Shown here piece by piece: positions 1-16,480 of a DNA stretch of 64,000 bases. Numbering within the stretch: the stretch's first letter is position 1; each line of letters starts with the position of its first letter. The stretch comes from Paenibacillus thiaminolyticus (GTDB lineage: Bacteria; Bacillota; Bacilli; Paenibacillales; Paenibacillaceae): contig NZ_CP041405.1 of assembly GCF_007066085.1 (NCBI RefSeq), positions 4,977,001 through 5,041,000 on the forward strand, read 5' to 3'. The notes under the pieces are model-generated. The model saw only the letters and a program-made list of their open reading frames with translations, had not been told where the DNA came from and searched no databases. The translations under genes and the position numbers were made by a program.

Positions 1-816
1 ATCTCGACCTTCATGGTTAATACGCTGCTGCTGACATCGGACGTCGTCATGAATCATAAAGAAAAGAAGGAGCGGGTGAAGGAGTTCATCAACCCGGATC
101 TGTGCGGGATAACCGAGGATCTCGTCTATACCGAGCCGTTCTATGATTGCCCGCGCAATGATGTGTTCCCGCCGCTGCTCCCGTTCGTTAAGGAATATTT
201 GTGGGAGGATGAAGCGCTGCTCCTGGAGACGGCGAAGCTGAAGTTCGAATTCATGAGCAATGCCCAGTCGCTGATTCACGGCGATCTGCATACGGGCTCC
301 ATCTTCGTGAAGCCGGACTCGACCAAGGTGATCGACCCGGAATTCGCCTTCTACGGACCGGCCGGCTACGACGTGGGCAATGTCGTCGCGAACCTGATCT
401 TCGCCTATGTCCATGCGGACAGCGTCATGGAGGACGGCGCGGAGAAGGAACGGCAAAGGGACTGGCTCCTGTCGGCGATACAAGATATGATTGATTTATT
501 CAAAGCGAAATTTGTGGCGGCGTGGAAGGTATCCGCGACGGAGCCATGTGCTTCCTACAAAGGCTTCGATCAGTATTATCTGGAGACGATTTTGCGGGAT
601 GCGGCAGGGGTCGCCGGACTGGAGCTGTGCCGGCGGACGCTCGGTCTCGCGCATGTCAAGGACATTACGTCGATTGCGGACGCGAACGCGCGCGCACGGG
701 CGGAGAAGATGTGCATCGTCATGGGCAAGCGGTTCATTATGGAGCGCCATCTGATGAAGAACGGGGCGGACTTCATGAAGGTCATTACGGCCGCTGGCGA
801 AGTGTACAGCAGATAA
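1..816 (+). CDS. mtnK: S-methyl-5-thioribose kinase, 5'-truncated by window
   Basis: C-terminal part of 5-methylthioribose kinase, which phosphorylates methylthioribose at C1 with ATP in recycling of methylthioadenosine. The frame is open from base 1, so the gene begins upstream; the first ATG in view (13) is internal. The aminoglycoside-phosphotransferase-like kinase fold shows in LIHGDLHTGSIF (catalytic HGDLH loop) and VIDPEFAFYGP (metal-binding DPE in place of DFG), followed by the GYDVGNVVANL helix typical of MtnK. mtnA follows 15 bases later with its own ribosome binding site, so the two form an operon. Family assignment is firm; the N-terminus is not visible. Confidence 0.93.
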   Translation: MSTFMVNTLLLTSDVVMNHKEKKERVKEFINPDLCGITEDLVYTEPFYDCPRNDVFPPLLPFVKEYLWEDEALLLETAKLKFEFMSNAQSLIHGDLHTGSIFVKPDSTKVIDPEFAFYGPAGYDVGNVVANLIFAYVHADSVMEDGAEKERQRDWLLSAIQDMIDLFKAKFVAAWKVSATEPCASYKGFDQYYLETILRDAAGVAGLELCRRTLGLAHVKDITSIADANARARAEKMCIVMGKRFIMERHLMKNGADFMKVITAAGEVYSR

Positions 817-831
817 GGAGGTCATGGGACG

Positions 832-1920
832 ATGGGAGACAACGGCGTGACAGCGACAATGATTCAATCGGTGACGTTGGATGATGCGAACGATACGCTG
901 GTCATTCTGGACCAGACGGTGCTGCCGAATGAGAAGGTATTTCTCAAGCTGAAGGAATTGAAGGATATTTGGGACGCGATCTACCATCTGAAGGTGCGCG
1001 GCGCGCCGGCGATCGGCATTGCGGCGGGATATGGCCTGTATCTGGGCGTCAAGGCTTCGGCGGCGGCGACGAAGGAAGATCTGGCGGAGGATTTCAAGCG
1101 TGTGAAGGACTATCTGGCTTCCTCCCGTCCGACGGCGGTCAACCTGTTCTGGGCGCTCGATCGGATGGAGGCGCGCTTCCAGCGGGAGCAGAGCGGAAGC
1201 ACCGCCGAGATCAAGGAAGCGCTGCGGGAGGAGGCCGAATCGATCCGGGCCGAAGACGAGCAAGTCTGCGAGCAGATCGGCCGCCATGCCTTGTCGCTGC
1301 TGGAGCCGGGCTGGGGCATCCTGACGCACTGCAACGCGGGGGCGATTGCGACGGCCAAATACGGCACGGCGCTGGCGCCCGTCTATTTGGGCGAGGAACA
1401 GGGATACGGCTTCAAGGTGTATGCCGATGAGACGAGGCCGCTGCTGCAAGGCGCGCGGTTGACGGCATGGGAGCTGCAGGAGGCGGGCATCGATGTCACG
1501 CTTATCTGCGACAACATGTCCTCCATCGTCATGAAGGAAGGCAAGATTCAAGCCGTCCTGGTCGGCTGCGACCGCGTGGCCGCCAACGGGGACACCGCCA
1601 ATAAGATCGGCACGTCGGCTGTGGCGATTCTGGCGAAGCATTACGGCATTCCGTTCTATGTGTGCGCGCCGTTGTCCACGGTCGATCTGCAGTGCGCGAC
1701 AGGCGACGACATTCATATCGAGTTGCGTCCGGATGAAGAGATTACGAGCAAGTGGTATGAAAAGCCGATGGCGCCGGCAGGAGTCAACGTCTATAACCCG
1801 TGCTTCGATGTGACGGATCACGAGCATATTACGGCGATCATTACGCAGCACGGCATTGCTTATCCGCCGTTCGCCGACAGTCTGCCCGCCATGTTCGCGA
1901 AGCAAGCATCGGGCAACTAA
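832..1920 (+). CDS. mtnA: S-methyl-5-thioribose-1-phosphate isomerase
   Basis: Converts methylthioribose-1-phosphate to methylthioribulose-1-phosphate, the step after MtnK. The 362 residues match the family length. Visible family motifs are [11 protein letters not shown] (about 56-66), HCNAGAIAT with the proposed catalytic Cys167, CDNMSS, and [17 protein letters not shown] with catalytic Asp247. The start ATG has AAGGAGG 11 bases upstream. It ends the mtnKA operon; mtnW/X/B/D genes of the classical methionine salvage route are not in view. Its product is a ketose-1-phosphate, a possible substrate for the class II aldolase encoded 1.5 kb downstream (inference). eIF2B-like relatives (ribose-1,5-bisphosphate isomerase) are the alternative, but the mtnK neighbour favours MtnA. 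Confidence 0.95.
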
Positions 1921-2013
1921 AACGGAAACGCTCGCTTAGAGACTGTACAGATCGAAAAACGGAAGCGGGCAAAACGGTGGAAGATGGATGAAGCAGTGAA
2001 ATGTTGCGTGGAT

Positions 2014-2187
2014 GCAGCAATTTCTGCTCTTTAAGACGCTATTTGATGAAATTCCTGCAAAAGTACATTATGTTCATTCGATTTTTGTCTTTTATTGATT
2101 GGATGGTCATAAATTGATGCCGTTTTGCAGGATTCCCAGTCACGGAGTACACGTTATAAAGGAAAGGTGTATTTTTGCAGTTTTTCC
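2014..2187. repeat. Intergenic degenerate repeat copies (GCAGCAATT / CCTGCAAAA family)
   Basis: The gap between mtnA and the DeoR gene has no convincing gene but contains GCAGCAATT (2014), ATTCCTGCAAAAGTACA (2051), its near inverse TTTTGCAGGATTCC (2123) and TATTTTTGCAGTTTTTCC (2170). The same words recur in a larger array at 30.69-31.1 kb, which suggests a dispersed non-coding repeat family. Short open frames here are not supported by ribosome binding sites or protein-like sequence. Confidence 0.45.
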
Positions 2188-2209
2188 GCGAGTCGAGCTT
2201 TGAGAATGA

Positions 2210-2262
2210 GGGGGCTGTCTCACTGTAGTGAAATACTACTTGTGCGACGACCCCCTTCTTTT
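2210..2262. terminator. Hairpin between convergent mtnA and DeoR gene
   Basis: GGGGG (2210) pairs with CCCCC (2251), enclosing an inner GTAGT-gaaat-ACTAC hairpin, followed by a T-rich TTCTTTT. The position between two convergent genes suits a terminator. The left arm GGGGGCTGTCTCA also resembles the ends of some insertion sequences, so a decayed element end is the alternative. Confidence 0.4.
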
Positions 2263-2319
2263 CGTTGTTTGTCTGCGTTGGATTCTGTTGGACTCAACGG
2301 CATCGCCGCCTGAGCTGCC

Positions 2320-3081
2320 TCAGACACATTCATGCAGCGAGATATTGCGCGAATCGAGGAACTCGTGCCAATCCTCTCCCAGCTGCTTGTCGGTGACGAG
2401 CGTATGGATGCGATCAAGCGGACAAATGCTGGCGAAGGAGGTGCGGTCGAACTTCGTGAAGTCCGCGACGAGATAGACCTTGTTCGCGCGCTCGACCGCG
2501 AGCCGGCGCACCTCTGCCTGCTGCTCGTTCGAATCGGTGATGCCGTGCTGCATGCTGACGGAGCGGCATGAGATGAAGGCCAGATCGAAGAAGTAGCTGT
2601 TCATATTCAGCTCGGCGTTCCGTCCGAGCGCGGACATGGAGCTGGAAGAGATGCCTCCGCCGATCATGACGAGATGGACGTTACTGTTATCGATTAAGGC
2701 GTTGGCGATTTTGAGCGAGTTGGTGACGACTGTAATGCGCTTATTCTCCAACTGCTGCGCAATATAGAGCGACGTCGTCGACGCATCCAAAAAGATGGAG
2801 TCGCCATTGGCGATGAATTCGGCGCACCGCTCGGCCATGCGCTTTTTGCCGTCGACGTGGATATGCTCCCGCAGGTTGACGTTCACGTCATTCTGCACCC
2901 CGTCCGGAACATAAGCTCCCCCGTATGTGCGTATTAGAACGCCCTCGTCCTCCAACTGCTTCAAGTCGCGGCGGATCGTTTCTTCCGTCACGTTGAACAG
3001 GGAGGTGAGCGCGGCGACGGTTACGCTCTTCTGCTCCATAATGATTTCTTTGATCTTGGCTTTTCTGGCTACTGGTAACAT
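2320..3081 (-). CDS. DeoR/GlpR-family transcriptional regulator
   Basis: 253 residues, the normal DeoR-family length. An N-terminal winged helix-turn-helix (about residues 5-60) contains SVTVAALTSLFNVTEETIRR followed by the wing sequence IRTYGGAYV; the rest is the DeoRC sugar-phosphate sensor fold with ANGDSIFLDASTT and ITVVTNSLKIANAL. These regulators usually repress a sugar-phosphate operon until a phosphorylated sugar binds. The gene diverges from the microcompartment operon across a 338-base gap and is most likely its regulator; the effector could be the ketose-1-phosphate used by the aldolase (inference). ATG at 3081 has TAGGAG upstream. Family assignment is firm, the target is inferred from divergent layout. 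Confidence 0.9.
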   Translation of the reverse strand: MLPVARKAKIKEIIMEQKSVTVAALTSLFNVTEETIRRDLKQLEDEGVLIRTYGGAYVPDGVQNDVNVNLREHIHVDGKKRMAERCAEFIANGDSIFLDASTTSLYIAQQLENKRITVVTNSLKIANALIDNSNVHLVMIGGGISSSSMSALGRNAELNMNSYFFDLAFISCRSVSMQHGITDSNEQQAEVRRLAVERANKVYLVADFTKFDRTSFASICPLDRIHTLVTDKQLGEDWHEFLDSRNISLHECV

Positions 3082-3106
3082 GTATCTATTCGCTCCTAAA
3101 AACAGA

Positions 3107-3299
3107 CATTTTATTGTTTTTCATTAAGTATAACATACTTTTCTTCTGATAAAAGTACTGTGTTTTATGGGTTGGTTGTCGTTTGTATTCCGATAAAGGC
3201 CTGATTCCATCTAAATATAGAATGAAAAGAAGAATGATGATGAATTTTGCACACGGAAAACAAACATAAAACAATAAGAGTCAAAATGAAACATTGACA
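3107..3299. promoter_or_regulatory. Divergent control region of DeoR gene and BMC operon
   Basis: The AT-rich gap between the two divergent genes carries TTATTGTTT (3111-3119) near the DeoR start and its exact inverse complement AAACAATAA (3269-3277) on the operon side. A TTGACA box lies at 3294-3299, without an obvious -10 at ideal spacing. The mirrored words are candidate DeoR operators, possibly looped. Protein binding is inference. Confidence 0.4.
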
Positions 3300-3419
3300 A
3301 ACAACGTATGAAGTAGGAAAATGAATGACATAAAGTACGTGTTCAAAAGCGGACTTTTTGAACAACCTCATAAGGGTATGTGCATATGTGCATTCAGGGA
3401 ATTTACAGGAGGTGACATC

Positions 3420-4241
3420 GTGCTAACCCAAGCAACACCCTACTATTCTGATTTTGAAGCGAAGAAAATGATCTGTGAAATCGGCAGAAGAATGTACCTC
3501 AAAAACTTCGTGGCTGCCAACGACGGGAACATTACGATAAAAACCGGTCCCAACGCGATCTGGGCCACGCCGACAGGAGTCAGCAAAGGCTTCATGACCC
3601 CGGACATGCTCGTCAAGCTGGATTTGGACGGGAAGGTGCTGGCCGGCAACCGGAAGCCGTCTTCCGAGATTAAGATGCATTTGCGGGTCTATGCGGAGAA
3701 TCCGGACGTGCGCGCGGTTACGCATGCGCATCCGCCGGTGGCGACCTCGTTCGCGATTGCCGGCATCGATCTCGATCAGGCCGTATCTCCGGAGGCGGTC
3801 GTTATCCTGGGAACGGTCCCGGTCGCGCCCTATGCGACGCCGGGGACGCAGGAGGTGCCGGACTCGATTGCTCCGTTCTGCAAGGATTACAATGCGGTGC
3901 TGCTGGCCAATCACGGCGCGTTGACCTGGGGCAAGGACATCATTGAGGCCTATTATCGCCTGGAGTCGCTGGAGCATTACGCGCTGATGCTGATGTACTC
4001 CGGCAAAATCATCGAGCAAGCGAATGAATTGAATTGCAGCCAAGTGTCCGACCTCATCGAGATTCGCAAGAAGATGGGCATTCAGAGCGGAGGGACGCCA
4101 AGCTGCAAGCCGGAGGGGGCCGTGAAGCCGAGCCGCGGGGAAGCCCAGCCCATGAGAGAAGCGGACAAGGAAGAAATCATCAGTCAGATTGTCGCCAGAG
4201 TGACGGACCAAGTGCTTCAGAAGCTTCAATTGAAGGGGTGA
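3420..4241 (+). CDS. Class II aldolase (fuculose-1-phosphate aldolase family) with C-terminal BMC-targeting helix
   Basis: Zinc-dependent class II aldolase that should split a ketose-1-phosphate into DHAP and an aldehyde. All hallmark residues are visible: Glu83 in SSEIKMH, zinc ligands His102 and His104 in THAHPPVATS, His165 in NHGALTWGKD. The 273-residue protein is longer than typical FucA (about 215) because of a linker and a C-terminal amphipathic helix, KEEIISQIVARVTDQVLQ, of the kind that packs enzymes into microcompartments. GTG at 3420 is chosen because AGGAGG lies 7 bases upstream; the frame is open farther 5' but lacks such a site. First gene of the BMC operon. Substrate unproved: fuculose/rhamnulose-1-P, methylthioribulose-1-P or 5-deoxyribulose-1-P are all family substrates; mtnKA nearby favours the last two. 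Confidence 0.88.
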   Translation: MLTQATPYYSDFEAKKMICEIGRRMYLKNFVAANDGNITIKTGPNAIWATPTGVSKGFMTPDMLVKLDLDGKVLAGNRKPSSEIKMHLRVYAENPDVRAVTHAHPPVATSFAIAGIDLDQAVSPEAVVILGTVPVAPYATPGTQEVPDSIAPFCKDYNAVLLANHGALTWGKDIIEAYYRLESLEHYALMLMYSGKIIEQANELNCSQVSDLIEIRKKMGIQSGGTPSCKPEGAVKPSRGEAQPMREADKEEIISQIVARVTDQVLQKLQLKG

Positions 4242-4246
4242 ACGAA

Positions 4247-5788
4247 GTGGGCATCCAGCTATCGGAATCGGATATCCAGAGCATTATTCAAGGCGTGTTG
4301 AAAAATATCGAGCAGAACTTGCCGGGCGGCCGGGCCGGACAGGCAGCAACCAAGCATGGGGCCATCAGGGATGCGGACGCCGGGCAGGCGCAGCCGGAAG
4401 CGGGGTCGACGAGCGCTTCGCCCGCAGAGAAGGGCGGCGAATGGGGCGTCTTCGCTGAGGCAGAGGCAGCCATTGATGCGGCTTCCGAGGCGCAGACGGC
4501 CTATATCCGGCAGTTCAATCTGCAGGATCGGGAGCGGTTCATCGCCGCCATCCGCCGCGCGACGCTTGAGCAGAAGGACGTGTTGGCGAGCATGACCTGG
4601 AAGGAGACGAAGCTCGGCCGCTATGAAGATAAAATCGCGAAGCTGGAGCTGACCGCAACCAAGACGCCCGGCACCGAAGACTTAATTGCGAAAGCGTTTA
4701 CGGGCGATGGCGGGCTGACGTTGGTGAAGGAAGGCCCGTTCGGCGTCATCGGCGCCGTGACGCCGGTGACGAACCCGGTCGAGACGGTGATCAACAACGC
4801 GATCGGGATGCTGGCGGCAGGGAATGCGGTCGTCTTCAATGTGCATCCGTCCTCCAAAGCCTGCTGCGCTTACGCGGTGCAAATGATGAACCGGGCGGTG
4901 CAAGAGGCGGGCGGGCCGGCGAATCTGGTCACGATGGTGAAGGAGCCGACCAAGGATACGCTGGACGCGATTGCGCAATCGCCGAAGGTGCAGCTGCTCG
5001 TCGGAACAGGCGGCCCCGGACTGGTGAGAGCGCTGCTGCGTTCGGGCAAGAAAGCGATCGGCGCCGGTGCGGGCAATCCTCCCGTCGTCGTGGATGATAC
5101 CGCTGACATCGAGCGGGCCGCCCAAGCCATTATCGCGGGCGCTTCCTTCGAGAACAACATTCTCTGCATTGCGGAGAAAGAGGTGTTCGTCGTGGACAAG
5201 GCGGCTGACGATCTGCTCTTCCACATGCTGAACCACGGCGCATACCGGCTGGACGACCGCGAACTCGAGCAGGTGATGAGCTTCGCGCTGGAAGTGAATG
5301 AGAGCGGGACGGCCAGCGGTTGCTCGCTCGATGCGAAGCGCGAATACCACACCGCGAAGGAGTGGATTGGGAAGGATGCGGCCCTGTTCTTGGATAAAAT
5401 CGGCGTCATTCCCGACAAGGAGGTCAAGCTGCTTATCTGTGAGGTTGATTTCGACCATCCGTTCGTGCAGCTGGAGCAGATGATGCCGATACTGCCAATC
5501 GTGCGCGTCAGCGATCTGGAGGAAGCGATTCGCCTGGCCGTCCTGGCGGAGCACGGCAACCGGCATACGGCATTGATGCATTCGACGAATGTGGCGAATC
5601 TCGCCGCCTTCGAGCGCGCGATCGGCACGACGATCTTCGTCAAGAACGCCTCGTCGCTCGCGGGCGTCGGTTCAGGCGGAGAAGGCTTCACGACGATGAC
5701 GATCGCCGGGCCGACGGGCGAAGGATTGACATCGGCCCGCACGTTCACGCGGAAGATGCGAAGCGTTCTTGCGGAGCGCGGAACCTGA
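4247..5788 (+). CDS. pduP: CoA-acylating aldehyde dehydrogenase (PduP/EutE type) with N-terminal encapsulation peptide
   Basis: Oxidises an aldehyde with NAD+ and CoA to an acyl-CoA inside the microcompartment. The chosen GTG at 4247 has AAGGGG upstream and gives 513 residues. The N-terminus, SESDIQSIIQGVLKNIEQNL, is a classic amphipathic BMC-targeting helix, followed by a Gly/Ala/Pro-rich linker (about 25-60). The dehydrogenase domain carries FGVIGAVTPVTNP, NAVVFNVHPSSK, VGTGGPGLV and the catalytic Cys307 in ENNILCIAEKEV, as in PduP and EutE. It follows the aldolase by 5 bases. It would convert the aldolase's aldehyde product, with PduL downstream recycling CoA. The exact aldehyde (lactaldehyde, acetaldehyde, methylthioacetaldehyde) cannot be read from the sequence. 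Confidence 0.93.
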   Translation: MGIQLSESDIQSIIQGVLKNIEQNLPGGRAGQAATKHGAIRDADAGQAQPEAGSTSASPAEKGGEWGVFAEAEAAIDAASEAQTAYIRQFNLQDRERFIAAIRRATLEQKDVLASMTWKETKLGRYEDKIAKLELTATKTPGTEDLIAKAFTGDGGLTLVKEGPFGVIGAVTPVTNPVETVINNAIGMLAAGNAVVFNVHPSSKACCAYAVQMMNRAVQEAGGPANLVTMVKEPTKDTLDAIAQSPKVQLLVGTGGPGLVRALLRSGKKAIGAGAGNPPVVVDDTADIERAAQAIIAGASFENNILCIAEKEVFVVDKAADDLLFHMLNHGAYRLDDRELEQVMSFALEVNESGTASGCSLDAKREYHTAKEWIGKDAALFLDKIGVIPDKEVKLLICEVDFDHPFVQLEQMMPILPIVRVSDLEEAIRLAVLAEHGNRHTALMHSTNVANLAAFERAIGTTIFVKNASSLAGVGSGGEGFTTMTIAGPTGEGLTSARTFTRKMRSVLAERGT

Positions 5789-5833
5789 TCACCTGATTTC
5801 GGGAACAATCCCGGGCAAGAGAGGTAGATGACG

Positions 5834-6160
5834 ATGGCAGAGGGCAAAGCATTGGGGTTCGTGGAGGTTCAAGGCTACAGCGTAGCCCTGGCGGTGATGG
5901 ACAAAGCCTGTAAGACGGCTGACGTGCATATTCTAGGTATTGACGCGAACAACCCGCCGGAGAACATGCAGACGTCGATCCCGCTAATGATCCAGGTGAA
6001 GTTCAGCGGGACGGTCAGTCATGTGCAGACGGCGCTCGAAGCGGCACGGGAAGAGGCCTTGACGTATTTGCGCGAGGATCAAGTGATTACGAAGTGCATT
6101 ACGTCAGGCAGCCCCGGCATCGCCTCCTTGCTGTCGAAGGGCAAAGTAGCGGTGAGATAG
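5834..6160 (+). CDS. BMC-H shell protein, divergent
   Basis: Single BMC-domain protein of 108 residues forming hexameric shell tiles. ALGFVEVQGYSVALAVMDKA aligns with the conserved ALGxIETxGxxxAIEAADA start of the fold, and GTVSHVQTALEAAREEA with the [13 protein letters not shown] helix. It departs from the canonical shell proteins downstream: the strand has MIQVKFSG where others have VxVxGDV, and it has an extra C-terminal stretch with GSPGIASLLSKGKV. ATG 5834 is preferred over 5828 because GAGAGG lies 9 bases upstream. First of five consecutive BMC-H genes; it may form a specialised facet or pore tile. Confidence 0.85.
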   Translation: MAEGKALGFVEVQGYSVALAVMDKACKTADVHILGIDANNPPENMQTSIPLMIQVKFSGTVSHVQTALEAAREEALTYLREDQVITKCITSGSPGIASLLSKGKVAVR

Positions 6161-6236
6161 ACAGGAAGCCGGCGTCCATGTCCGGTTATGGGCAGGAACA
6201 GGCTCGGGCTTCCCGGCAGGAAGGGGAGGGGGCGGC

Positions 6237-6542
6237 ATGAAGCGTGAAGGGAAGCAATCTCTTGGCATGATAGAAACGATAGGCATCACTCCGGCTATCC
6301 GCGCGGCGGATATGATGGTGAAATGCGCCTACATTACCGTAGTAAGCATTGAAAAGTCAGGAGCGGGCATCGTGACGGTGCTCATTCAAGGCAAGCTGGA
6401 TTCCGTTCAGGCCGCACTCGAGATCGGCGCGCTTGAAGCGCAAAATACGGGGGAGCTTGTCGCCGTCCATGTCATCAACAATCCGGATGACGGGCTCGCC
6501 GGGCTGCTGCCGTGCAATGGAACGGAGGGAACCCGAGAATGA
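6237..6542 (+). CDS. BMC-H shell protein
   Basis: A 101-residue BMC-domain protein: LGMIETIGITPAIRAADMMV, then GAGIVTVLIQGKLDSVQAAL and [16 protein letters not shown], all standard elements of hexameric shell subunits (helix A, central pore region, beta strands). A purine-rich AAGGGGAGGGGGCGGC precedes the ATG. Its stop overlaps the start of the next gene as ATGA, so the two are translationally coupled. The pore-lining loop around KSGAG differs from the canonical KIGSG of the two small paralogues downstream, suggesting a different pore chemistry (inference). Confidence 0.88.
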   Translation: MKREGKQSLGMIETIGITPAIRAADMMVKCAYITVVSIEKSGAGIVTVLIQGKLDSVQAALEIGALEAQNTGELVAVHVINNPDDGLAGLLPCNGTEGTRE

Positions 6543-7024
6543 CGTATGATGCGATTGGCGTAATCGAGGCCCGCTATTTCGCGACGGCGCTGGAGATAAC
6601 CGACGCGATGAGCAAGGCGGCCCAGGTGGAATGGCTCGCCAGCGAGAAGGCCTTGGGCGGCAGGCTGGTGACGATCATCGTCGGCGGCGATGTCGCCAAC
6701 GTGAAGGCGGCGGTGGAAGCGGCCAAGGCGGTCTGCGCCGGCAAAGCGGCCAATCCGCTCGCCCATGCGGCGGTCATCTTGAAGCCTCATGCGGAGATCA
6801 TGAAGTTCGTTATGCCTGCGCAGGCGGGGGAAGAAGAGCGTGCCGGATCTGGGGCAGCGGCGGCGGCTGCGGCATGGGACGAAGCCAAGGCATCGGCAGC
6901 TGCGGTATTAGACGAAGGCAAGACATCGGCAGCTGCGGCTGAGAAGAACAAGATGAAGGAGGAACAAGGAGATGAACCAAGCATTGGCGATTGTGGAGAC
7001 AAGAGGCTTGACGGCGGCGATTGA
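6539..7024 (+). CDS. BMC-H shell protein with Ala-rich C-terminal tail
   Basis: Residues 1-95 are a BMC domain ([57 protein letters not shown]). It continues into an alanine/acidic/lysine tail of about 65 residues, unusual for BMC-H. Part of the tail comes from a 33-bp tandem duplication (6878-6910 and 6911-6943) encoding the unit [11 protein letters not shown] twice in variant form. The frame runs 53 bases into the next shell gene, so the last ~17 residues (ending RLDGGD) are read from that gene's start in another frame; either a real overlap or a lost stop after the tail. ATG at 6539 overlaps the preceding stop. The tail could be a lumen- or cytosol-facing extension. Confidence 0.82.
6878..6943 (+). 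repeat. 33-bp tandem duplication inside shell-protein tail
   Basis: Two adjacent 33-base units, both beginning GACGAAG and containing CATCGGCAGCTGCGG, differ at a few positions only. They keep the reading frame and lengthen the Ala-rich tail by 11 residues. Copy number may vary between strains. Confidence 0.75.
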
Positions 7025-7247
7025 AGCGGCGGATGCGATGCTGAAGGCGGCGAATGTGGAGATTGCGGGCACGGAGAAAATCGGCTCCGGACTTGTCTCG
7101 GTTATGGTTCAAGGCGATGTCGGCGCGGTCAAGGCCGCTGCGGAGGTTGGAGCCGAGGCGGCGCAGCGCGTGGGCGAATTGGTCGCTGTTCATGTCATTC
7201 CGCGTCCGCATGGCGATGTGGCTAAGCTGATTGCCGCAGGGAAATAA
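6972..7247 (+). CDS. Canonical BMC-H shell protein (major hexamer), copy 1
   Basis: A 91-residue canonical shell protein of the PduA/EutM class: [60 protein letters not shown]. The pore motif KIGSG is the standard one for small polar metabolites. A good AAGGAGGAACAAGGAG precedes the ATG, inside the tail of the preceding gene. It is nearly identical to the next gene, so the pair arose by recent tandem duplication. Probably the bulk component of the shell facets. Confidence 0.95.
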
Positions 7248-7309
7248 GCCGGGCAAGCAGGAGCGGCGTCATAGAACTTCATTTTCATATCCACAAGGAG
7301 GCTATCCAA

Positions 7310-7585
7310 ATGAACGAATCATTAGGAATTATCGAGACGAGAGGCTTGACGGCGGCGATCGAGGCGGCGGATGCGATGCTGAAGGCGGCCAATGTGGAGA
7401 TTGTGGGCACGGAGAAAATCGGTTCCGGATTGGTGACGGTCATCGTTCGCGGCGATGTCGGCGCCGTGAAGGCTGCGACAGAGGTCGGGGCGGAAGCCGT
7501 GCAGCGGTTGGGCGAGCTGGTGGCGGCGCATGTGATTCCTCGTCCGCACAGCGATGTGCTCAAAATTCTCCCATCCCTGAAATAA
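7310..7585 (+). CDS. Canonical BMC-H shell protein (major hexamer), copy 2
   Basis: Also 91 residues, matching the preceding shell protein along its length ([59 protein letters not shown]). The differences are mainly conservative, with Q-to-R before GDVGAV and a different last dozen residues. CAAGGAGG precedes the ATG. Two near-identical BMC-H genes can co-assemble into facets or mixed hexamers; whether they have separate roles cannot be told here. Confidence 0.95.
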
Positions 7586-7619
7586 GCGGGATAACCGATC
7601 CAGCATGGCGGTGATAAAT

Positions 7620-8285
7620 ATGACGGAACAGGTTAATAAGGAACTAACGGATTATATTACGCAATTGGTTATGGAAGAACTGGAACGCTGCGGCTTGGCT
7701 CCTGACCGGGAGCCGCTCCGCTTCGTGCCTGTCGGCGTCTCTGCTCGTCATGTGCATCTGTCGCAAGCGGATATGGAACTGCTGTTCGGCACGGGCAAGC
7801 CGCTGACCAAGTTCAAAGATATTTCTCAGCCTGGCCAATACGCGGCGAACGAGAAGGTCACGGTTATCGGCCCGAAGGGAACGATTGAGAACGTTCGTAT
7901 TCTCGGGCCGTTCCGCAAGCATACGCAGGTGGAGATTGCGGCCAGTGAAGCGCGCAAGCTGGGCGTTCAACCGCCCGTTCGCGAGTCGGGCCGGATCGAA
8001 GGCTCCCCGGGCGTACAGCTCGCCGGTCCGCACGGTGCCGTGACGCTGGTGCAAGGATGCATCATCGCCGAGCGTCATATTCATATGACGCCTGCCGATG
8101 CCCGCGCGTATGGCGTGCGGCATGGGCAGAAGGTGCAGGTGAAGGTGCCGGGCGGCAAAGGAGGCATTATGGACCACGTATCAATCAAGGTGCGGGAGGA
8201 TTACGCGCTGGAAATGCATATCGATACGGATGATTCCAATGCCTTCGGCATCAAGCAGGGAGACGCGTTAGAAATATTGCGGTGA
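7620..8285 (+). CDS. pduL: Phosphate acyltransferase PduL
   Basis: BMC-type phosphotransacylase that exchanges CoA on the acyl-CoA made by PduP for phosphate, regenerating CoA in the lumen. Two tandem PduL (PTAC) domains carry zinc-binding histidine motifs: VSARHVHLS near residue 45 and AERHIHMTPADA near 155. The first ~20 residues, KELTDYITQLVMEELERC, form an amphipathic targeting helix like those of the aldolase and PduP. ATG 7620 is preferred to ATG 7605 because GGCGGTGAT lies just upstream. Its stop overlaps the next open frame. The acyl-phosphate would feed an acetate-kinase-type enzyme, not present in the window. Confidence 0.93.
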   Translation: MTEQVNKELTDYITQLVMEELERCGLAPDREPLRFVPVGVSARHVHLSQADMELLFGTGKPLTKFKDISQPGQYAANEKVTVIGPKGTIENVRILGPFRKHTQVEIAASEARKLGVQPPVRESGRIEGSPGVQLAGPHGAVTLVQGCIIAERHIHMTPADARAYGVRHGQKVQVKVPGGKGGIMDHVSIKVREDYALEMHIDTDDSNAFGIKQGDALEILR

Positions 8286-8302
8286 AAGCGAGGCTTATGG
8301 CA

Positions 8303-8581
8303 ATGAAGATGGGCAAAGTGGTGGGCAATATGATTTCCTCCCGCAAATATGACGGGCTTCAGGGCTACAAGCTTCTCCTTATTGAATTATGCTATATCGA
8401 GCCGAAGACGTATATCGTCGCCGCCGACACCATCGGAGCCGGCCTTGAGCAGCTTGTGCTGGTGGCGGAAGGCAGCAATATTCAGCAAGCGCTGACGAAG
8501 CCGGCGCCAATCGACGCGCTTGTCGTCGGCATCATCGACAGCGAGCCTGGGCTTCCCGCCGACGCCCCGTCTAGCGGGTGA
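8303..8581 (+). CDS. BMC-P vertex protein (EutN/CcmL family)
   Basis: Pentameric vertex protein capping the 12 corners of the shell. MGKVVGNMISSRKYDGLQGYKLLL is the recognisable EutN/CcmL start (shown here shortened: KVVGNMISSRKYDG), followed by YIVAADTIGAGLEQLVLVAEGS, matching the family's DxxGAGxGExVLxxxGS motif, and DALVVGIIDS near the C-terminus. ATG 8303 gives 92 residues, the usual length, with GCGAGG 9 bases upstream; earlier in-frame starts (GTG 8282, ATG 8297) would add residues without family support. Only one BMC-P gene and no BMC-T (double-domain) gene is seen in the operon. Confidence 0.92.
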   Translation: MKMGKVVGNMISSRKYDGLQGYKLLLIELCYIEPKTYIVAADTIGAGLEQLVLVAEGSNIQQALTKPAPIDALVVGIIDSEPGLPADAPSSG

Positions 8582-8593
8582 GGAGGACTTTCG

Positions 8594-8762
8594 ATGAATG
8601 AACCATTGAAGGTATTGGCGGTTGGCGATGCGGCGGGCAGGCGATATGCTGTGTGTGCTGTACGAGGAGATCGGCGCGGCGTTCCAAGGGGGGAGAAGCG
8701 CGGATGAGGCGCTGAAGCGGGCCGAAGCGCGTATTCTCGCCATGCAGCAAGGAGGAGGCTGA
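8594..8762 (+). pseudogene. Decayed small gene, possibly a deleted solute-binding-protein-like gene
   Basis: An ATG at 8594 with GAGGAGG upstream starts MNEPLKVLAVGDAAG, then that frame becomes arginine-rich and stops at 8707. From about 8640 another frame reads GDMLCVLYEEIGAAFQGGRS and ADEALKRAEARILAMQQGGG, ending at 8762, four bases before the next start. Joining the two by one frameshift gives a coherent ~58-residue product. The first segment resembles the start, and the second the C-terminal helix, of sugar-binding ABC proteins, so an internal deletion of a larger gene is possible. That identity is tentative; a small frameshifted BMC accessory gene is the alternative. Confidence 0.45.
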
Positions 8763-8766
8763 TCCT

Positions 8767-10098
8767 ATGAAAATCATCATTATCGGCGGAGTCGCGGCAG
8801 GCATGTCCGCCGCATCCAAGGTGAAGCGGACCTCTCCGGAGGCGGAGGTCGTCGTGTACGAGAAGGGAAGCTTCCTGTCTTACGGCGCTTGCGGCTTGCC
8901 CTATTATGTATCCGGAGCCAACGATGATTACCGGAACATGATCGCGCGCACCCGCGAGCAGTTCGAGCAAGCGGGAATCCAGACCCGCCTTCGGCATGAA
9001 GTCCTGAAGATTGTTCCCGAATCGAAGCGGATTATGGTGAAGGATCTGGACAAGAACAAGGTATTCCTCGACCACTACGACAAGCTGATGATTGCGACCG
9101 GAACCGTTCCGATTGTGCCGCCCCTGCCGGGCAAGGATGTGCCGGGGGTGCATCTGCTGAAGACGCTGGAGGACGGCATCGCGCTAAAGGAAAAGGTCGC
9201 TTCACCGGACGTGCAGGACGTGGTCATCGTAGGCGGCGGCTATATCGGCATCGAGGTGGCCGAGGCGATGGTCGAGCTCGGCAAGCGCGTCCGGGTCGTC
9301 GAGCTGGGCGATCGTATCCTGAAGACATTCGATCCGGAGATTACCGGCATCGCTTCCCGGGAATTGGCGGACAAAGGCGTTAGCCTGAACATCGGGGAGA
9401 AGGTCGAGGCGATTGACGGAACGGAGCGGGTGACCGGCATTCGCACGGACAAGGGCAGCTATCCGGCGGATATGGTCATCTTGTCGGCGGGAGTCAAGCC
9501 GGCGACCGGCTTCGTGAAGGGGACGGGAATAAGATTGGCCCGCAACGGCGCCATTATTATCGATCGCGAGATGAGAACAAGCGTGGAGGACATCTATGCG
9601 GCGGGGGATTGCGCCGAAGTATACAGCCGCGTCATGGAGGAGAACACGTATATTCCGCTCGGCACGACGGCGAACAAGTGCGGGCGGATTGCAGGCTTGA
9701 ATCTGCTGGGCAAGCATGAGAAATTCATCGGCACGCTGGGCAGCGCCGCGATCAAAGTGCTGGGCCTCGAGCTCGGCCGCACCGGCATGTCGGAAGAGGA
9801 CGCGCAGCGGCTGGCGATCGACTATGGAACGGTATGGGTCAGCGCCGCCGATCATCCGAAGTATTATCCCGACCCGACACCGATTCATCTGAAGCTGATC
9901 TATGAGAAAAAATCCGGCGTGCTGCTCGGCGCGCAGGGAATCGGCGAGAAAGGGGTCGTGCTCCGCATCGATATCTTGGCGGTGGCGATTCATAACCGCA
10001 TGACGGCGGCGGAGATGGGCATGGCCGATCTTTGTTACGCGCCGCCGTTCGCCGGCGTCTGGGATGCCGTTCATATCGCATGCAATGCTATTAAATAG
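8767..10098 (+). CDS. CoA-disulfide reductase / NADH oxidase-family flavoprotein
   Basis: FAD- and NAD(P)H-dependent pyridine nucleotide-disulfide oxidoreductase, 443 residues. The N-terminal FAD motif is IIGGVAAGMSAASK; the single redox Cys42 lies in SYGACGLPYYVSG, as in CoA-disulfide reductases and water-forming NADH oxidases. A second GGGYIGIEVAEAM nucleotide motif (about 158) binds NADH, and IYAAGDCAEV is the C-terminal FAD contact. It sits between the shell genes and the CoA-transferase-like pair. In this operon it could re-oxidise the NADH made by PduP (no alcohol dehydrogenase is present) or keep CoA reduced; both are inferred. No targeting helix is apparent at its N-terminus. Confidence 0.88.
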   Translation: MKIIIIGGVAAGMSAASKVKRTSPEAEVVVYEKGSFLSYGACGLPYYVSGANDDYRNMIARTREQFEQAGIQTRLRHEVLKIVPESKRIMVKDLDKNKVFLDHYDKLMIATGTVPIVPPLPGKDVPGVHLLKTLEDGIALKEKVASPDVQDVVIVGGGYIGIEVAEAMVELGKRVRVVELGDRILKTFDPEITGIASRELADKGVSLNIGEKVEAIDGTERVTGIRTDKGSYPADMVILSAGVKPATGFVKGTGIRLARNGAIIIDREMRTSVEDIYAAGDCAEVYSRVMEENTYIPLGTTANKCGRIAGLNLLGKHEKFIGTLGSAAIKVLGLELGRTGMSEEDAQRLAIDYGTVWVSAADHPKYYPDPTPIHLKLIYEKKSGVLLGAQGIGEKGVVLRIDILAVAIHNRMTAAEMGMADLCYAPPFAGVWDAVHIACNAIK

Positions 10099-10110
10099 GT
10101 GGTGGACCGA

Positions 10111-10947
10111 ATGAGTCGAAAAATAATTTCCCTCCAAGAATCTGCCGCGCTGGTGCGTGACGGCGATATCCTTGCTCTCGGCGGCAATGTGCTCCACCGT
10201 GCGCCGATGGCGCTGGTGCGGGAGCTGGTCAGACAGCGCAGGCGCCGCCTGCGGCTGGTGAAGACGGCGGGGGCGCATGACATCGATCTGCTGTGCGCGG
10301 CAGGGTGCGTGCAGTCGGTCGATGCGGGCTTCGTCAGCTACGAGACCGAATACGGTCTGGCGATGCATTACCGCAAAGCGGTGGAGCGGGGCGAGGTGCA
10401 GGGGCATGAGCATGCGTGCTATACGGTCATCTGCGCGCTGCGGGCGGCGGCCTCGGGTGTTCCGTTCATGCCGGTGGCCGGCTTGAAGGCGGGGGATCTG
10501 ATCGCCGCCAACGATTATTTCGAGGTCATCCCGAATCCGTTCGGAGATGAGCCTGTCACGGTGGTCAGCTCGATCGTGCCTGACGTGGCCGTGCTCCATG
10601 TGCAGGAATGCGACGAGGACGGCAACGCCGTCATTCTCGGCCCGAAGTTCGAGGATGTGCTGATGAGCCGCGCCGCCAAGCGGGTCATCTTGACAACCGA
10701 GAAGATCGTGCCGAAGAGCAAGATGCGGATGCGTCCCGACAGCGTCGATATTCCTCACTTCCTCGTCGAGGCCGTCGTTCACGCTCCGCGCGGCGCCGCG
10801 CCATGCTCCTGCGAGAAGAGCTATGAGGCGGACTCCAAAATGCTGGAGCGGTTCGTGAAGATGAAGACAGCGGCAGAGATCGAGGAGTATGTGCAGGCGT
10901 ATGAGAGCAAGGATCGAAGCGGGATGAAGGCAGGTGGTCAGTGGTGA
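10111..10947 (+). CDS. Class I CoA-transferase-like protein, subunit A (GctA/IpdA type)
   Basis: Alpha-type subunit of the class I CoA-transferase superfamily, 278 residues from ATG 10111, which has AGGTGGT upstream. Family elements include LVRDGDILALGGNVLHRAPMAL, then DLLCAAGCVQSVDAGFVSYE, PFMPVAGL and VPDVAVLHVQECDEDGNAV. Known relatives transfer CoA between acids (glutaconate, 3-oxoacid) or, in IpdAB, hydrolyse a C-C bond in a CoA thioester. Its partner gene follows with an overlapping start, so the two form a heteromer. In the microcompartment operon it may move CoA from the acyl-CoA onto another acid or process the product further; there is no direct evidence for the substrate. Confidence 0.82.
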   Translation: MSRKIISLQESAALVRDGDILALGGNVLHRAPMALVRELVRQRRRRLRLVKTAGAHDIDLLCAAGCVQSVDAGFVSYETEYGLAMHYRKAVERGEVQGHEHACYTVICALRAAASGVPFMPVAGLKAGDLIAANDYFEVIPNPFGDEPVTVVSSIVPDVAVLHVQECDEDGNAVILGPKFEDVLMSRAAKRVILTTEKIVPKSKMRMRPDSVDIPHFLVEAVVHAPRGAAPCSCEKSYEADSKMLERFVKMKTAAEIEEYVQAYESKDRSGMKAGGQW

Positions 10948-11693
10948 ATCAGTCGAATCAAGAGCAAGCGGCTGCGAAGCAGGCACGGGTCAGCGACATC
11001 ATGGTCTGTGCGCTTGCCCGCATGCTGCAGGACGGCGAGACGGTCTTTCACGGGGTGTCATCGCAGATGCCGATGGTCGCCATGATGCTGGCCCGGCAGC
11101 TTCATGCGCCCAATCTGGTGCATCTCAACATCCCGGGGGGCGTCAACCCTTCTTCCATTAAGAAGGCATCCTACTCCTCCGCAGGGGCGGATTTGCTGGC
11201 CAGCGCGGAAGCGTATTTTCCGCTGGAGCAGGTCTTCGACCTGTCGATGCGCGGCGGACTGGATGTCGCATTTCTTGGCGGCGTGCAGTTCGATGCGCGG
11301 GGCAATGTGAACGCCTCCGTCATCGGGGATTACCGTAAGCCGAAGGTCCGCTTGCCTGGCGGCGCCGGGAGCGCCGTGCTTATCCCGACCGCGAAGAAGG
11401 CGATTATATGGCGGACGAAGCATGATCGGCGCACCTTCGTCGACAAGGTCGACTTCGTGACGACACGGGGCAATGTATGGCGAATCGTCACCCCCTTGTG
11501 CGTGTTCGCGATGAAGGACGGGATGCTGATGCTCGACAGCATTCATCCGACTTCCTCCCTGGAAGAAGTCGTGCAGAACACCGGGTTCGAGGTCAAATAC
11601 GATGAGCTTCGCTTCACTCCGCTGCCGACAGCCAGAGAATTAAGCGTATTGAAGCAGATCGATCCGTTCGATTACCGCTCAAGCGAGTTTTGA
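10944..11693 (+). CDS. Class I CoA-transferase-like protein, subunit B (GctB/IpdB type)
   Basis: Beta-type subunit paired with the preceding gene; GTG at 10944 overlaps its stop (GTGA). Fold markers are LQDGETVFHGVSSQMPMVAM, GGLDVAFLGGVQFDARGNVN, and the C-terminal ELRFTPLPTARELSVLKQID that resembles beta subunits of this superfamily. Classical transferases carry a catalytic Glu here in a VESG/ENG motif after the first Rossmann segment; this protein instead reads HLNIPGGVNPSS with no Glu. IpdAB-type hydrolases also lack it. Thus the pair may be a hydrolase or lyase rather than a transferase, or the catalytic residue lies elsewhere. Last gene of the operon; a hairpin follows. Confidence 0.78.
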   Translation: MNQSNQEQAAAKQARVSDIMVCALARMLQDGETVFHGVSSQMPMVAMMLARQLHAPNLVHLNIPGGVNPSSIKKASYSSAGADLLASAEAYFPLEQVFDLSMRGGLDVAFLGGVQFDARGNVNASVIGDYRKPKVRLPGGAGSAVLIPTAKKAIIWRTKHDRRTFVDKVDFVTTRGNVWRIVTPLCVFAMKDGMLMLDSIHPTSSLEEVVQNTGFEVKYDELRFTPLPTARELSVLKQIDPFDYRSSEF

Positions 11694-11697
11694 TGAC

Positions 11698-11755
11698 AAT
11701 CCGCAGTTGAAGTCTTCCCTTTGCCGGGAGTGCTTGCTCTGCGGATTATTTTTAT
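11698..11755 (+). terminator. Terminator after BMC operon
   Basis: AATCCGCAG (11698-11706) pairs with CTGCGGATT (11739-11747), enclosing a nested TCCC/GGGA stem, and is followed by ATTTTTAT. It begins five bases after the last stop codon of the operon. Confidence 0.7.
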
Positions 11756-12024
11756 GGATTAGATCCTTCCTTTCTACCCCATTCAAGAAATTTCCCCCTC
11801 GCGAAGAGAAATTTATCCCATCAATTGTGGCAAGGTACAAAAATATTTAACATTTACATTAATATTACATTTAGAGGTAAAATGACCCAAACTAAAGACT
11901 GAATTTGAAAAGCCGCTATGTATTCGTTTTCTTGGTTATTCATGCGGTTTTACTTTTGCATGCCAATTAGGATAGGTTGAATAGTAGAAATGGCGTAATC
12001 TGTAAAGTAAGGAGGCGAGAGGAG

Positions 12025-12117
12025 TTGTTTCCGTTTGTTGAGATCGGCGTCAAGGAGCTTGGCTCTGACCTCAAAAAACGAGCAATTGCACCCAGAAATC
12101 AGCTGAATGTGAGATAG
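12025..12117 (+). CDS. Possible 30-residue leader peptide upstream of EPS genes
   Basis: A TTG at 12025 preceded by AAGGAGGCGAGAGGAG opens a 30-codon frame (LFPFVEIGVKELGSDLKKRA...) ending at 12117, 17 bases before the glycosyltransferase. The ribosome binding site is strong but the start codon weak and the product unlike anything I recognise. It could be a short peptide, a translational leader, or chance. The rest of the 11756-12024 gap is AT-rich and holds no other gene; it probably contains the promoter of the EPS operon. Confidence 0.3.
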   Translation: MFPFVEIGVKELGSDLKKRAIAPRNQLNVR

Positions 12118-12134
12118 AAAAAGGAGTGAGTGCC

Positions 12135-13484
12135 ATGCAGTACATTTTTTATGGAACAGCTGTGACGTTTCTGGTGTTTCAACTTCTGTATACGATCATC
12201 CCGTTGCTGTGCAGCAAGGTGAAGAAGCTGAATCCCGATCTTGCGGAAAAGTCGATTTCGGTGCTCGTGCCCGCTTATAACGAGGAGCTTACGATCAAAA
12301 ATTGCATCGATGCCATGGCGGGCCTGCATTATGAGAACTATGAAATCATCATAATTAACGACGGTTCCAAGGACGCCACCTTCGCCAGGCTGGACGAGCT
12401 GCTCGAATTGGAGCCGGATGACCGGGAAGCGGACAATAAGCTGGCTTATAAACCGATCAAAGGATTTTACCGTTCCCGGCAGTATCCCCGGATCTACGTT
12501 ATCGACAAGCTGAACGGCGGCAAGGCGGACTCGCTCAATGCGGGCATCGATTGCGCCGCATCGGATATCGTCATTACATTGGATGCGGATAGTATGCTGG
12601 AAGCGAACGCGTTGAAATATGTGAATCAATATTTTCATCAAGACGATGTGATTGCGCTGGGCGGCACGGTCAAGATTGTCCAGGGCGCAGAGAAGCAGGA
12701 CGGCGTCATCGTGGAGAGGTTCCGGGGCAGAGGGCTCATTAAGAGCCAAATCATCAACTATATTCATGGCTTCTATGTCCGCAAATTAACGCAATCCGTC
12801 TTTAATTCCATTGTGGTCATTTCAGGCGCATTCGGCGCTTTTTACAAAGATATATTAATCCAGGTAAACGGATTCCGCAGCACGGTGGGGGAAGACATCG
12901 ATATTACGCTGAAAATTCATGAGTATATGAAGGCGAAGCGGTTGAAGAAAAAACTAGTATACGCGCCGGAAGCGGTCTGCTACACCGAATGTCCGGAGAA
13001 CCTGCCCAACTTCTATAAGCAGCGCATTCGCTGGCAAAAGGCGTTTGTCGACTGCATCTTAATTTACTGGTCGAAGCTGTCGCACAAATTTTCCTCTGGC
13101 GTAAGCCTGTTTTTTGCGATCGATGGATTTATGCTGGGCACCTTCTCGGCGTTCACGACGCTATTTTATTTGTCCCAGGCTCTCATTGCAGGCGGAAATG
13201 TCATTCATGCGCTTATTTTTCTGCTGATCAGCCTGGTGTTCAATGCGGCCCAGATCCTCATTTCCTTATATTTATGCAAAAAGTTTGGCAGCACGTATTC
13301 TTTCAAGGACTATGTGAAAATGTTCCTATTCAGCCAATACGAATTGCTGACCTACCGGAATTTGCTGCTCTACATTAATATTGCCGGGACGTTCAAATAT
13401 TTTGACAATGATGAAGGCTGGGGCTTCGTCGAGCGCAAAGGCGTCGCCGCCATTAGCCAGAACATCGCTGCCGGATCAAATTAA
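12135..13484 (+). CDS. Processive family 2 glycosyltransferase, membrane-bound (IcaA/PgaC/HAS-like)
   Basis: Membrane GT2 synthase of 449 residues, probably polymerising a beta-linked exopolysaccharide and passing it through the membrane. An N-terminal membrane helix (YIFYGTAVTFLVFQLLYTII) precedes the GT-A domain with the ordered motifs VLVPAYNEE, INDGSKD, TLDADSML, GED and the processive QRIRWQ. Two or more C-terminal membrane segments follow. ATG 12135 has AAGGAG 8 bases upstream. First of three consecutive genes with an acyltransferase-3 and a GH18 enzyme, the set seen around poly-N-acetylglucosamine systems (IcaA, IcaC, PgaB-like hydrolase). A poly-GlcNAc product is an inference; hyaluronan- or cellulose-like polymers remain possible. 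Confidence 0.88.
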   Translation: MQYIFYGTAVTFLVFQLLYTIIPLLCSKVKKLNPDLAEKSISVLVPAYNEELTIKNCIDAMAGLHYENYEIIIINDGSKDATFARLDELLELEPDDREADNKLAYKPIKGFYRSRQYPRIYVIDKLNGGKADSLNAGIDCAASDIVITLDADSMLEANALKYVNQYFHQDDVIALGGTVKIVQGAEKQDGVIVERFRGRGLIKSQIINYIHGFYVRKLTQSVFNSIVVISGAFGAFYKDILIQVNGFRSTVGEDIDITLKIHEYMKAKRLKKKLVYAPEAVCYTECPENLPNFYKQRIRWQKAFVDCILIYWSKLSHKFSSGVSLFFAIDGFMLGTFSAFTTLFYLSQALIAGGNVIHALIFLLISLVFNAAQILISLYLCKKFGSTYSFKDYVKMFLFSQYELLTYRNLLLYINIAGTFKYFDNDEGWGFVERKGVAAISQNIAAGSN

Positions 13485-13502
13485 TGGAATGGAGGAGCAC
13501 GC

Positions 13503-14603: not shown

Positions 14604-14607
14604 AGCG

Positions 14608-16100: not shown

Positions 16101-16158
16101 TAGTGGGGGCCTATGGTAAAATCTTCATTTCAGAGTTTCCTCGGGGTTGCAGGATACC

Positions 16159-16392: not shown

Positions 16393-16424
16393 TTCGGTGT
16401 CCTCCAAGCTTACATGATTTGACT

Positions 16425-16480
16425 ATACGCATCAACGTACCATATAATAAGTTTTGACCTGGTACGCATATGCGTATAAC
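16425..16480. promoter_or_regulatory. Palindromic operator sites between XRE gene and DWVKE gene
   Basis: A perfect 14-bp palindrome TACGCATATGCGTA (16463-16476) and a related imperfect copy TACGCATcaaCGTA (16426-16439) flank the AT-rich CATATAATAAG, which looks like a -10 box. Two spaced dyads over a promoter are typical for a Cro/CI-type repressor. Binding is inferred. Confidence 0.6.

Follow-up and report, generated by a model that had tools for sequence, protein, structure and literature searches.

A candidate microcompartment for methylthioribose and/or 5-deoxyribose in Paenibacillus thiaminolyticus

Introduction

Which substrate would a bacterial microcompartment (BMC) built around an aldolase serve when its operon lies beside the genes for methylthioribose kinase and methylthioribose-1-phosphate isomerase? 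This question is raised by the first 11,693 nucleotides of a 64,000-nucleotide stretch of the Paenibacillus thiaminolyticus genome (the window; G000:C1:4977001-5041000, in a genome of one contig of 6.61 Mb). Here mtnK, the 5' end of which lies outside the window, and mtnA are followed by a divergent deoR gene and then by genes for a class II aldolase, PduP, five BMC-H shell proteins, PduL, a EutN-type vertex protein, a CoA-disulfide-reductase family flavoprotein (CDR) and two subunits of a CoA-transferase-fold protein (CtA and CtB, together CtAB). Based on gene families and their neighbourhoods, we suggest, with a probability of about 0.8, that this locus encodes a metabolosome for a dihydroxyacetone phosphate (DHAP) shunt acting on methylthioribose and/or 5-deoxyribose. 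A first-pass annotation had already read the locus as a candidate compartment for one of these two sugars, and the genomic comparisons described here support that reading.

Results

Linkage of mtnK and mtnA to the shell operon

The first-pass annotation had named conserved adjacency of mtnK, mtnA and the BMC operon as a check of its reading. Such adjacency is found in 16 of the 19 aldolase relatives that also carry CtAB and, in addition, in Acetoanaerobium noterae, compared with none of 21 shell loci with aldolases of lower identity. These counts are based on a scan with the aldolase in which the best 80 of at least 566 relatives were fetched as loci and the homologues of the window genes were marked in each. 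Splitting the loci at 58% aldolase identity gives 43 loci at or above this value, with mtnK and/or mtnA in 32, shell genes and pduP in 20 and both in 14, and 37 loci below it, with mtn genes in two, shell genes and pduP in 21 and both in none. CtA and CtB occur together with the aldolase in 19 of the 80 loci, all in the higher-identity group and all with CDR; they are present in 18 of the 20 shell and pduP loci of that group, and CDR, CtA and CtB are found in none of the 37 lower-identity loci. Fisher tests on the shell loci, in which kinship is ignored, give p 1.1e-6 for mtn genes (14/20 versus 0/21) and p 9e-10 for CtAB (18/20 versus 0/21). In a tree from a quick search in which long branches were flagged, a clade of 35 rows with an SH-aLRT value of 100% unites 21 shell loci with a single mtn locus.

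Among the 19 CtAB-bearing loci, mtnK and/or mtnA lie inside the fetched stretch in 14 and were found by an extended fetch in two more; in two others a contig ends at this point, and in one they are unlinked. At the contig ends, L017 starts, and the mtnKA contig of its genome ends, between mtnA and deoR, and L037 stops in CtB while another contig of its genome starts 100 bases ahead of the importer. The genes occur in at least four orders, with mtnKA (i) upstream of deoR, (ii) upstream in loci without deoR, (iii) downstream of CtB, as in L039 (L179) and L040 (L183), where an importer, mtnK and mtnA follow CtB directly, and (iv) between CtB and pduL (L045/L177). In L045 from Clostridia and in L046 (L178) from Treponema, mtnK and mtnA lie within the run of genes leading to pduL, pduP and the shell genes. 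The locus of A. noterae showed deoR, the genes from the aldolase to CtB, and an importer; mtnK and mtnA were predicted blind to come next, and both were found. This match stems from a plasmid collection (1358 records, 19 of them covering 80% of the aldolase and one at 60-80% identity), and the record, labelled a plasmid, is 2.6 Mb long and carries no annotation in that collection.

Three features of the related loci are recorded here. A cluster of proteins, c19, is encoded in L023, L024, L030, L033, L037, L039, L040 and L049, mostly between eutN and CDR, and has the fold of a solute-binding protein (PF01547; the L023 copy at 15489-16658 was scanned) with no evident signal peptide. In L030 from Clostridium bovifaecis the CtA frame (17935-18588) is shortened before CtB by a frameshift or an assembly error. 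In L031, L032, L034 and L035 a tailed aldolase gene adjoins mtnKA and a CDR gene, with no shell, PduP or CtAB gene beside it.

Gene content of the locus

Profile matches bear out the gene list and order of the first-pass annotation (Table 1). The operon combines five PF00936 proteins and one PF03319 protein with a CoA-acylating aldehyde dehydrogenase (NF011927) and a phosphotransacylase (PF06130), i.e. the shell and the enzyme core of a metabolosome, and the genes of a DHAP shunt, for proteins of the MtnK, MtnA and FucA-type aldolase families, are clustered. As had been stated, no diol dehydratase, ethanolamine lyase or glycyl-radical enzyme is among the 15 proteins scanned from positions 1-11693. 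The BMC gene set of the first-pass annotation stands; CDR, CtA and CtB, which lie inside its span, had been left out of its reasoning. Likewise, the window does contain no fucose- or rhamnose-type kinase, and what had been missed is a sugar importer that lies beyond the window and immediately precedes mtnK: in L100, genes for a periplasmic sugar-binding protein (PF13407), an ABC ATPase (PF00005) and a permease (PF02653), of RbsBAC type, precede the full 414-residue mtnK ORF (open reading frame; L100 11573-12817, starting upstream of the window), so that the importer genes, mtnK and mtnA follow one another in a single orientation. Over the best BLAST stretch, the operon proteins share 92-100% identity with their counterparts in Paenibacillus dendritiformis (L016), with the exception of one shell protein at 68%.

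Table 1. Features of the locus, with positions in the window
Feature	Position	Strand	Evidence
mtnK, S-methyl-5-thioribose kinase, 3' part	1..816	+	TIGR01767 312.8 bits, cut-off 275, in-window part
mtnA, methylthioribose-1-phosphate isomerase	832..1920	+	TIGR00512 421.6 bits, cut-off 279
DeoR-family regulator, divergent from BMC operon	2320..3081	-	PF00455, PF08220
Class II aldolase (FucA/DrdA-type), signature enzyme	3420..4241	+	PF00596 175.7 bits
Aldolase C-terminal shell-targeting-like helix, last 24 residues	4167..4238	+	Position, preceding linker, similar tails in relatives
PduP-type CoA-acylating aldehyde dehydrogenase	4238..5788	+	NF011927 634.7 bits, cut-off 403
BMC-H shell protein 1	5828..6160	+	PF00936 54.7 bits
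BMC-H shell protein 2	6237..6542	+	PF00936 77.3 bits
BMC-H shell protein 3, C-terminal extension; ORF opens at 6512	6539..7024	+	PF00936 64.5 bits
BMC-H shell protein 4	6972..7247	+	PF00936 96.2 bits
BMC-H shell protein 5	7310..7585	+	PF00936 106.8 bits
PduL phosphotransacylase	7605..8285	+	PF06130 258.9 bits
EutN/CcmL-type vertex protein (BMC-P)	8282..8581	+	PF03319 78.5 bits
CDR, CoA-disulfide-reductase family flavoprotein	8767..10098	+	NF007123 577.8 bits, cut-off 458; best PDB match 3cgb, E 3e-121
CtA, CoA-transferase-fold alpha subunit	10099..10947	+	PF01144; best PDB match 5mzw_A, E 2.8e-36
CtB, CoA-transferase-fold beta subunit	10941..11693	+	PF01144; best PDB match 5n03_D, E 5.3e-32

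The aldolase ORF opens at an ATG at 3321, and the GTG at 3420, which is preceded by AGGAGGTGA, is more probably the start. The protein contains the motifs SSE, HAH and NHG, to which we ascribe a catalytic role, and DrdA (6BTD) is its third-best PDB match. It stays below the cut-offs for fuculose- and rhamnulose-phosphate aldolases (TIGR01086, 64.8 of 400.25; NF005302, 109 of 264; NF002963, 53.9 of 170) and for the methylthioribulose-1-phosphate dehydratase MtnB (TIGR03328, 82 of 137.05 bits). Its C-terminal helix, with similar tails in the aldolases of relatives, resembles the kind that directs enzymes to shells. The GTG start of pduP overlaps the aldolase stop codon; PduP has its Cys in the sequence CIAEK and, by eye, an N-terminal helix that looks like a targeting peptide. 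A hydrophobic-moment scan, in which a wrong start was used for PduP, placed the aldolase tail at the top of its protein, with none of 266 other windows as high.

No alcohol dehydrogenase for recycling of NAD+ was found among the operon genes by profile scans; this enzyme is also missing from several published BMC types (PMC4207490). For control of mtnKA by a SAM (S-adenosylmethionine) riboswitch, the window and eight further sources gave no Rfam match, and seven more gave three unrelated matches. AT-rich 16-mers (1-3 mismatches) precede the aldolase gene as well as the importer genes in the window and in relatives; AT-richness was not controlled for, and we claim no shared DeoR operator. Elsewhere in the window, positions 16823-21437 encode what by eye is an McrB/McrC-like pair, which matches the PADLOC candidate system PDC-M26A/B.

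CtAB as a probable Cys/Sec group within the CoA-transferase fold

Among solved structures, CtA and CtB are closest to 5mzw/5n03, which we take to be AibAB, and to glutaconate CoA-transferase (1poi). A CtB relative at an E value of 1e-20 or better is present in 52 of 398 Bacillota genomes, and the neighbourhoods of the best 15 of these 52, besides that of the window itself, served as the non-BMC set. In 12 of the 15 loci, CtA is split into two ORFs of one frame by a single TGA, and in none by TAA or TAG; in an alignment where U was replaced by C, this TGA falls on Cys107 of the window CtA. Cys is also present at this position in the remaining three non-BMC proteins and in all 19 BMC operons, in contrast to the glutaconate CoA-transferase-like paralogues, which have Asn in five cases and a gap in one. 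In CtB, the catalytic Glu of the class I beta subunit is found in all six paralogues and not in the window protein, which has Ile64 at this position, as do all 19 BMC operons, with Ile or Leu in 15 of 15 non-BMC relatives; AibB has a Cys here that is presumably catalytic.

SelA is over its cut-off in all 15 genomes of the non-BMC set and not over it in the P. thiaminolyticus genome. As a candidate SECIS-like hairpin, a stem of six pairs that lies 15 bases behind the TGA is whole in 11 of the 12 TGA genes, in a register chosen after seeing the folds; two of its pairs are changed on both sides, and it is complete in none of 23 Cys genes (best, four of six pairs). L138 folds in another register, and the energies of 48-base windows are unremarkable. 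We suggest that the in-frame TGA is a probable selenocysteine (Sec) codon. In the parts of two selenoproteome reviews that were available, no CoA-transferase-like family is listed, and a Sec form of CoA-disulfide reductase appears in one of them. With Cys or apparent Sec at the CtA position and the Glu absent from CtB, we conclude that CtAB differs from an ordinary CoA-transferase and that it probably employs a thiol or selenol. CDR also differs from the known CoA-disulfide reductases (3cgb, NF007123): it lies above their equivalog cut-off but sits in a shell operon. A CDR-type flavoprotein gene adjoins CtAB in three non-BMC loci, and the one protein scanned contains a rhodanese domain.

The TGA-bearing CtA genes are those of L138, L139, L142-L150 and L152. 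In L143 the gene adjoins those for Fe-S, CCG and flavin subunits of heterodisulfide-reductase type, and in L139, L144-L147 and L150 it also lies near a Glu-bearing glutaconate-transferase-like pair.

A sulfhydrylase gene accompanies two of the loci

In L028 (Gracilibacillus oryzae) and L029 (Clostridium polyendosporum) a sulfhydrylase-type gene (PF01053) precedes the importer; the name O-acetylhomoserine sulfhydrylase is taken from a G. ureilyticus relative. At its C-terminus the L028 protein is extended by a stretch similar to the aldolase tail, and a search with this tail alone found one further protein, that of G. ureilyticus. Sulfhydrylases are present in 17 of the 19 CtAB genomes, and, judged from the alignment ranges of the matches, the alignment runs to the end of the tail for the L028 copy alone; a second copy in the same genome falls short of it. 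The sulfhydrylase gene of P. thiaminolyticus lies far from the locus and its product has no tail. L048 holds a sulfhydrylase-like fragment (36%).

Classical salvage, sugar kinases and other shells in the genome

Genome-wide, mtnA has a single match. A run of mtnW, mtnX and mtnB (MtnB, L097 7516-8160, 195.5 bits, cut-off 137.05) and, elsewhere, one candidate for ARD/MtnD (106.3 bits) are also present; MtnB and the aldolase would be rivals for methylthioribulose-1-phosphate. The genome has three PF00596 genes, i.e. those for the window aldolase, for AraD (408.4 bits, cut-off 389.1, next to ribulokinase) and for MtnB, and four FGGY kinases, namely GlpK, gluconokinase, ribulokinase and one without a match at 1e-30 over the N-terminal 241 residues scanned. 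Its 19 PF00936 domains are at three places; the two further shell loci, L098 and L099, lie at about 570-583 kb and 2675-2689 kb, and by eye one has a glycyl-radical enzyme with its activase and the other EutABC-like genes.

An ARD match is present in 14 of 32 genomes behind related loci, 13 of them over the cut-off. Among the 19 CtAB genomes, ARD is over the cut-off in seven (one at 28.7 bits versus 27) and none reaches it in 12; in these 12, mtnKA cannot feed the classical oxygen-dependent pathway and the aldolase is the candidate user of their product, with the reservation that the absences are soft because many of the genomes are drafts.

Discussion

A model for the compartment

Combining gene families, neighbourhoods and residue patterns, we suggest the following pathway: (i) the RbsBAC-type importer would take up 5-methylthioribose and/or 5-deoxyribose, (ii) MtnK and MtnA would convert the sugar to the ribulose-1-phosphate, (iii) the shell-targeted class II aldolase would split this into DHAP and methylthioacetaldehyde (or acetaldehyde), and (iv) acyl-CoA would be formed by PduP and converted by PduL to acyl-phosphate, with five BMC-H proteins and one BMC-P protein making up the enclosing shell. 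The kinase, isomerase, aldolase, acyl-CoA and acyl-phosphate steps follow the assignments of the gene families. We infer that methylthioribose is the main substrate.

For methylthioribose, CtAB would split methylthioacetyl-CoA in a Cys-dependent manner into acetyl-CoA and a methylthio mixed disulfide, which CDR would reduce to methanethiol. CDR would use the NADH from PduP, and for that reason we propose that an alcohol dehydrogenase is not needed. The volatile and toxic methanethiol would be kept at the shell and then handed to O-acetylhomoserine sulfhydrylase, which would capture it to form methionine without oxygen. That the organelle is in this way an oxygen-independent methionine-salvage compartment, in which CtAB (with Cys, or Sec in relatives) and CDR free methanethiol and the Gracilibacillus sulfhydrylase is targeted to the shell, is a tentative proposal to which we give somewhat less than an even chance.

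Several observations weigh against the model or its parts. Among the 25 NCBIfam matches listed for the aldolase none reaches an equivalog cut-off, and the best is 3-oxo-tetronate 4-phosphate decarboxylase (NF043034, 130.8 of 250 bits). The hydrophobic moment was rejected as proof of targeting, in that the ends of CtB, mtnK and PduL (the last not at the expected helix) are also flagged, nor does it set the sulfhydrylase tail apart, as 26 of 425 core windows reach the same height. By eye, CDR, CtA and CtB carry no targeting peptide, and CDR and CtAB may for this reason lie outside the shell. The sulfhydrylase is linked to the locus in two lineages only. An independent-pairs test of CtAB against mtn adjacency is uninformative, with no covariation in 5 pairs (median p 1). 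The unlinked case, L019, has mtnK/mtnA elsewhere in its genome, and L047 has mtnKA and a shell but no CtAB. In L031, L038 and L041 a tailed aldolase gene has no shell genes nearby and the genomes have no PF00936 match; where genomes with unlinked aldolases do have shell genes elsewhere (6 of 10), an aldolase homologue or CtAB lies beside them in none of the five places fetched. In L042 (Clostridium asparagiforme; 9992-14648) the same core with a shell neighbours what by eye are genes for a phosphotransferase system (PTS) and RpiB-like and TIM-like genes, together with RuBisCO-like genes, and no mtnA match was found in this genome, which argues that the core is usable for another sugar. In P. 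thiaminolyticus itself, the presence of mtnW, mtnX, mtnB and ARD together with the single mtnA implies that mtnA also serves the classical oxygen-dependent salvage, and mtnKA is not dedicated to the shell.

An aldolase of the L042 type is also encoded in L055 (10019-10819), beside what by eye are similar sugar genes, and the core seems to be reused there for another sugar.

Alternative explanations

The closest alternative is a special case of the DHAP-shunt model, in which the shell serves 5-deoxyribose derived from 5'-deoxyadenosine in place of methylthioribose and acetaldehyde is converted to acetyl-CoA, acetyl-phosphate and ATP. For acetaldehyde PduP and PduL suffice; the specificity constants of DrdK are nearly equal for the two sugars (PMC6079011); and the genome holds classical methionine-salvage genes, just as B. 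thuringiensis, whose shunt is described as disposing of 5-deoxyribose, has the universal pathway (PMC10986504). CDR, CtA and CtB would then be without an evident task, yet CtAB accompanies nearly all shell and pduP loci of the higher-identity group and none of the lower-identity loci, and the sulfhydrylase in two loci also speaks against this alternative. Gene neighbourhoods cannot separate the two sugars, which limits our preference for methylthioribose: only CDR-CtAB and the sulfhydrylase lean towards it. On this evidence we consider a compartment for 5-deoxyribose in place of methylthioribose unlikely, if the most serious of the competitors.

A compartment for fucose or rhamnose, in which the aldolase would yield lactaldehyde as in the PVM type and as assumed for PVM-like loci, has the precedent of that analogy in its favour; it is hard to reconcile with mtnKA being linked to this locus and not to the lower-identity shell loci, the other PF00596 genes of the genome are those for AraD and MtnB, and three of the four FGGY kinases have other assignments (isomerases were not searched for). 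We regard it as very improbable. Slightly more improbable still is that the adjacency is accidental, with mtnKA serving only classical salvage and the shell another sugar phosphate. The classical genes with the single mtnA, the divergent regulator that separates mtnKA from the operon and the L042 core beside other sugar genes would fit such a scheme, but the linkage persists when gene order changes and where no ARD match is present in the genome, and in the Treponema and Clostridia loci mtnK and mtnA lie inside the run of pduL, pduP and shell genes. The linkage counts lead us to reject chance adjacency and to retain the DHAP-shunt metabolosome.

Relation to known systems

The kind of organelle is already known: the anatomy of the locus fits the published descriptions of PVM-like BMC loci (Axen 2014; Sutter 2021; PMC4207490, PMC8156839), for which the substrate in print is, by analogy with PVM, fucose/rhamnose or 1,2-propanediol related; the window locus adds mtnKA, CDR and CtAB. 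Kinase, isomerase and FucA-type aldolase are shared with the DHAP shunts of B. thuringiensis (DrdK-DrdI-DrdA, which convert 5-deoxyribose and, in tandem, methylthioribose; PMC6079011) and E. coli (MtnK-MtnA-Ald2; PMC10986504), and in the parts of these papers available a shell, PduP, PduL or CtAB is not mentioned, nor does the word compartment occur in PMC6079011. SPU microcompartments (PMC8217296) also release acetaldehyde from a sugar phosphate by an aldolase but use a DeoC-type enzyme and RpiB on deoxyribose phosphate. The shell locus of GRM5 of Clostridium phytofermentans (PMC4207490) includes a class II aldolase homologous to that of the window; there lactaldehyde goes to propanediol and a glycyl-radical enzyme is involved, and the window operon has none. 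A methylthioribose kinase beside a pdu locus was noted in Acetobacterium woodii and called unrelated to BMC function (PMC7593272). In the literature searched, outside of which lay subscription papers, preprints and supplements, we found no paper that, in the text available, proposes a microcompartment for methylthioribose or 5-deoxyribose, and none that pairs a microcompartment with 5-deoxyribose. Within this literature the functional assignment is new.

Our reading supplies a testable substrate for a type of aldolase BMC that has been filed under fucose/rhamnose by analogy, and CtAB suggests that the CoA-transferase fold has a Cys/Sec branch, as predicted from sequence. It also links bacterial organelles to the salvage of SAM by-products and offers anaerobes, and bacilli that lack MtnD, a possible way to regain the sulphur of methionine.

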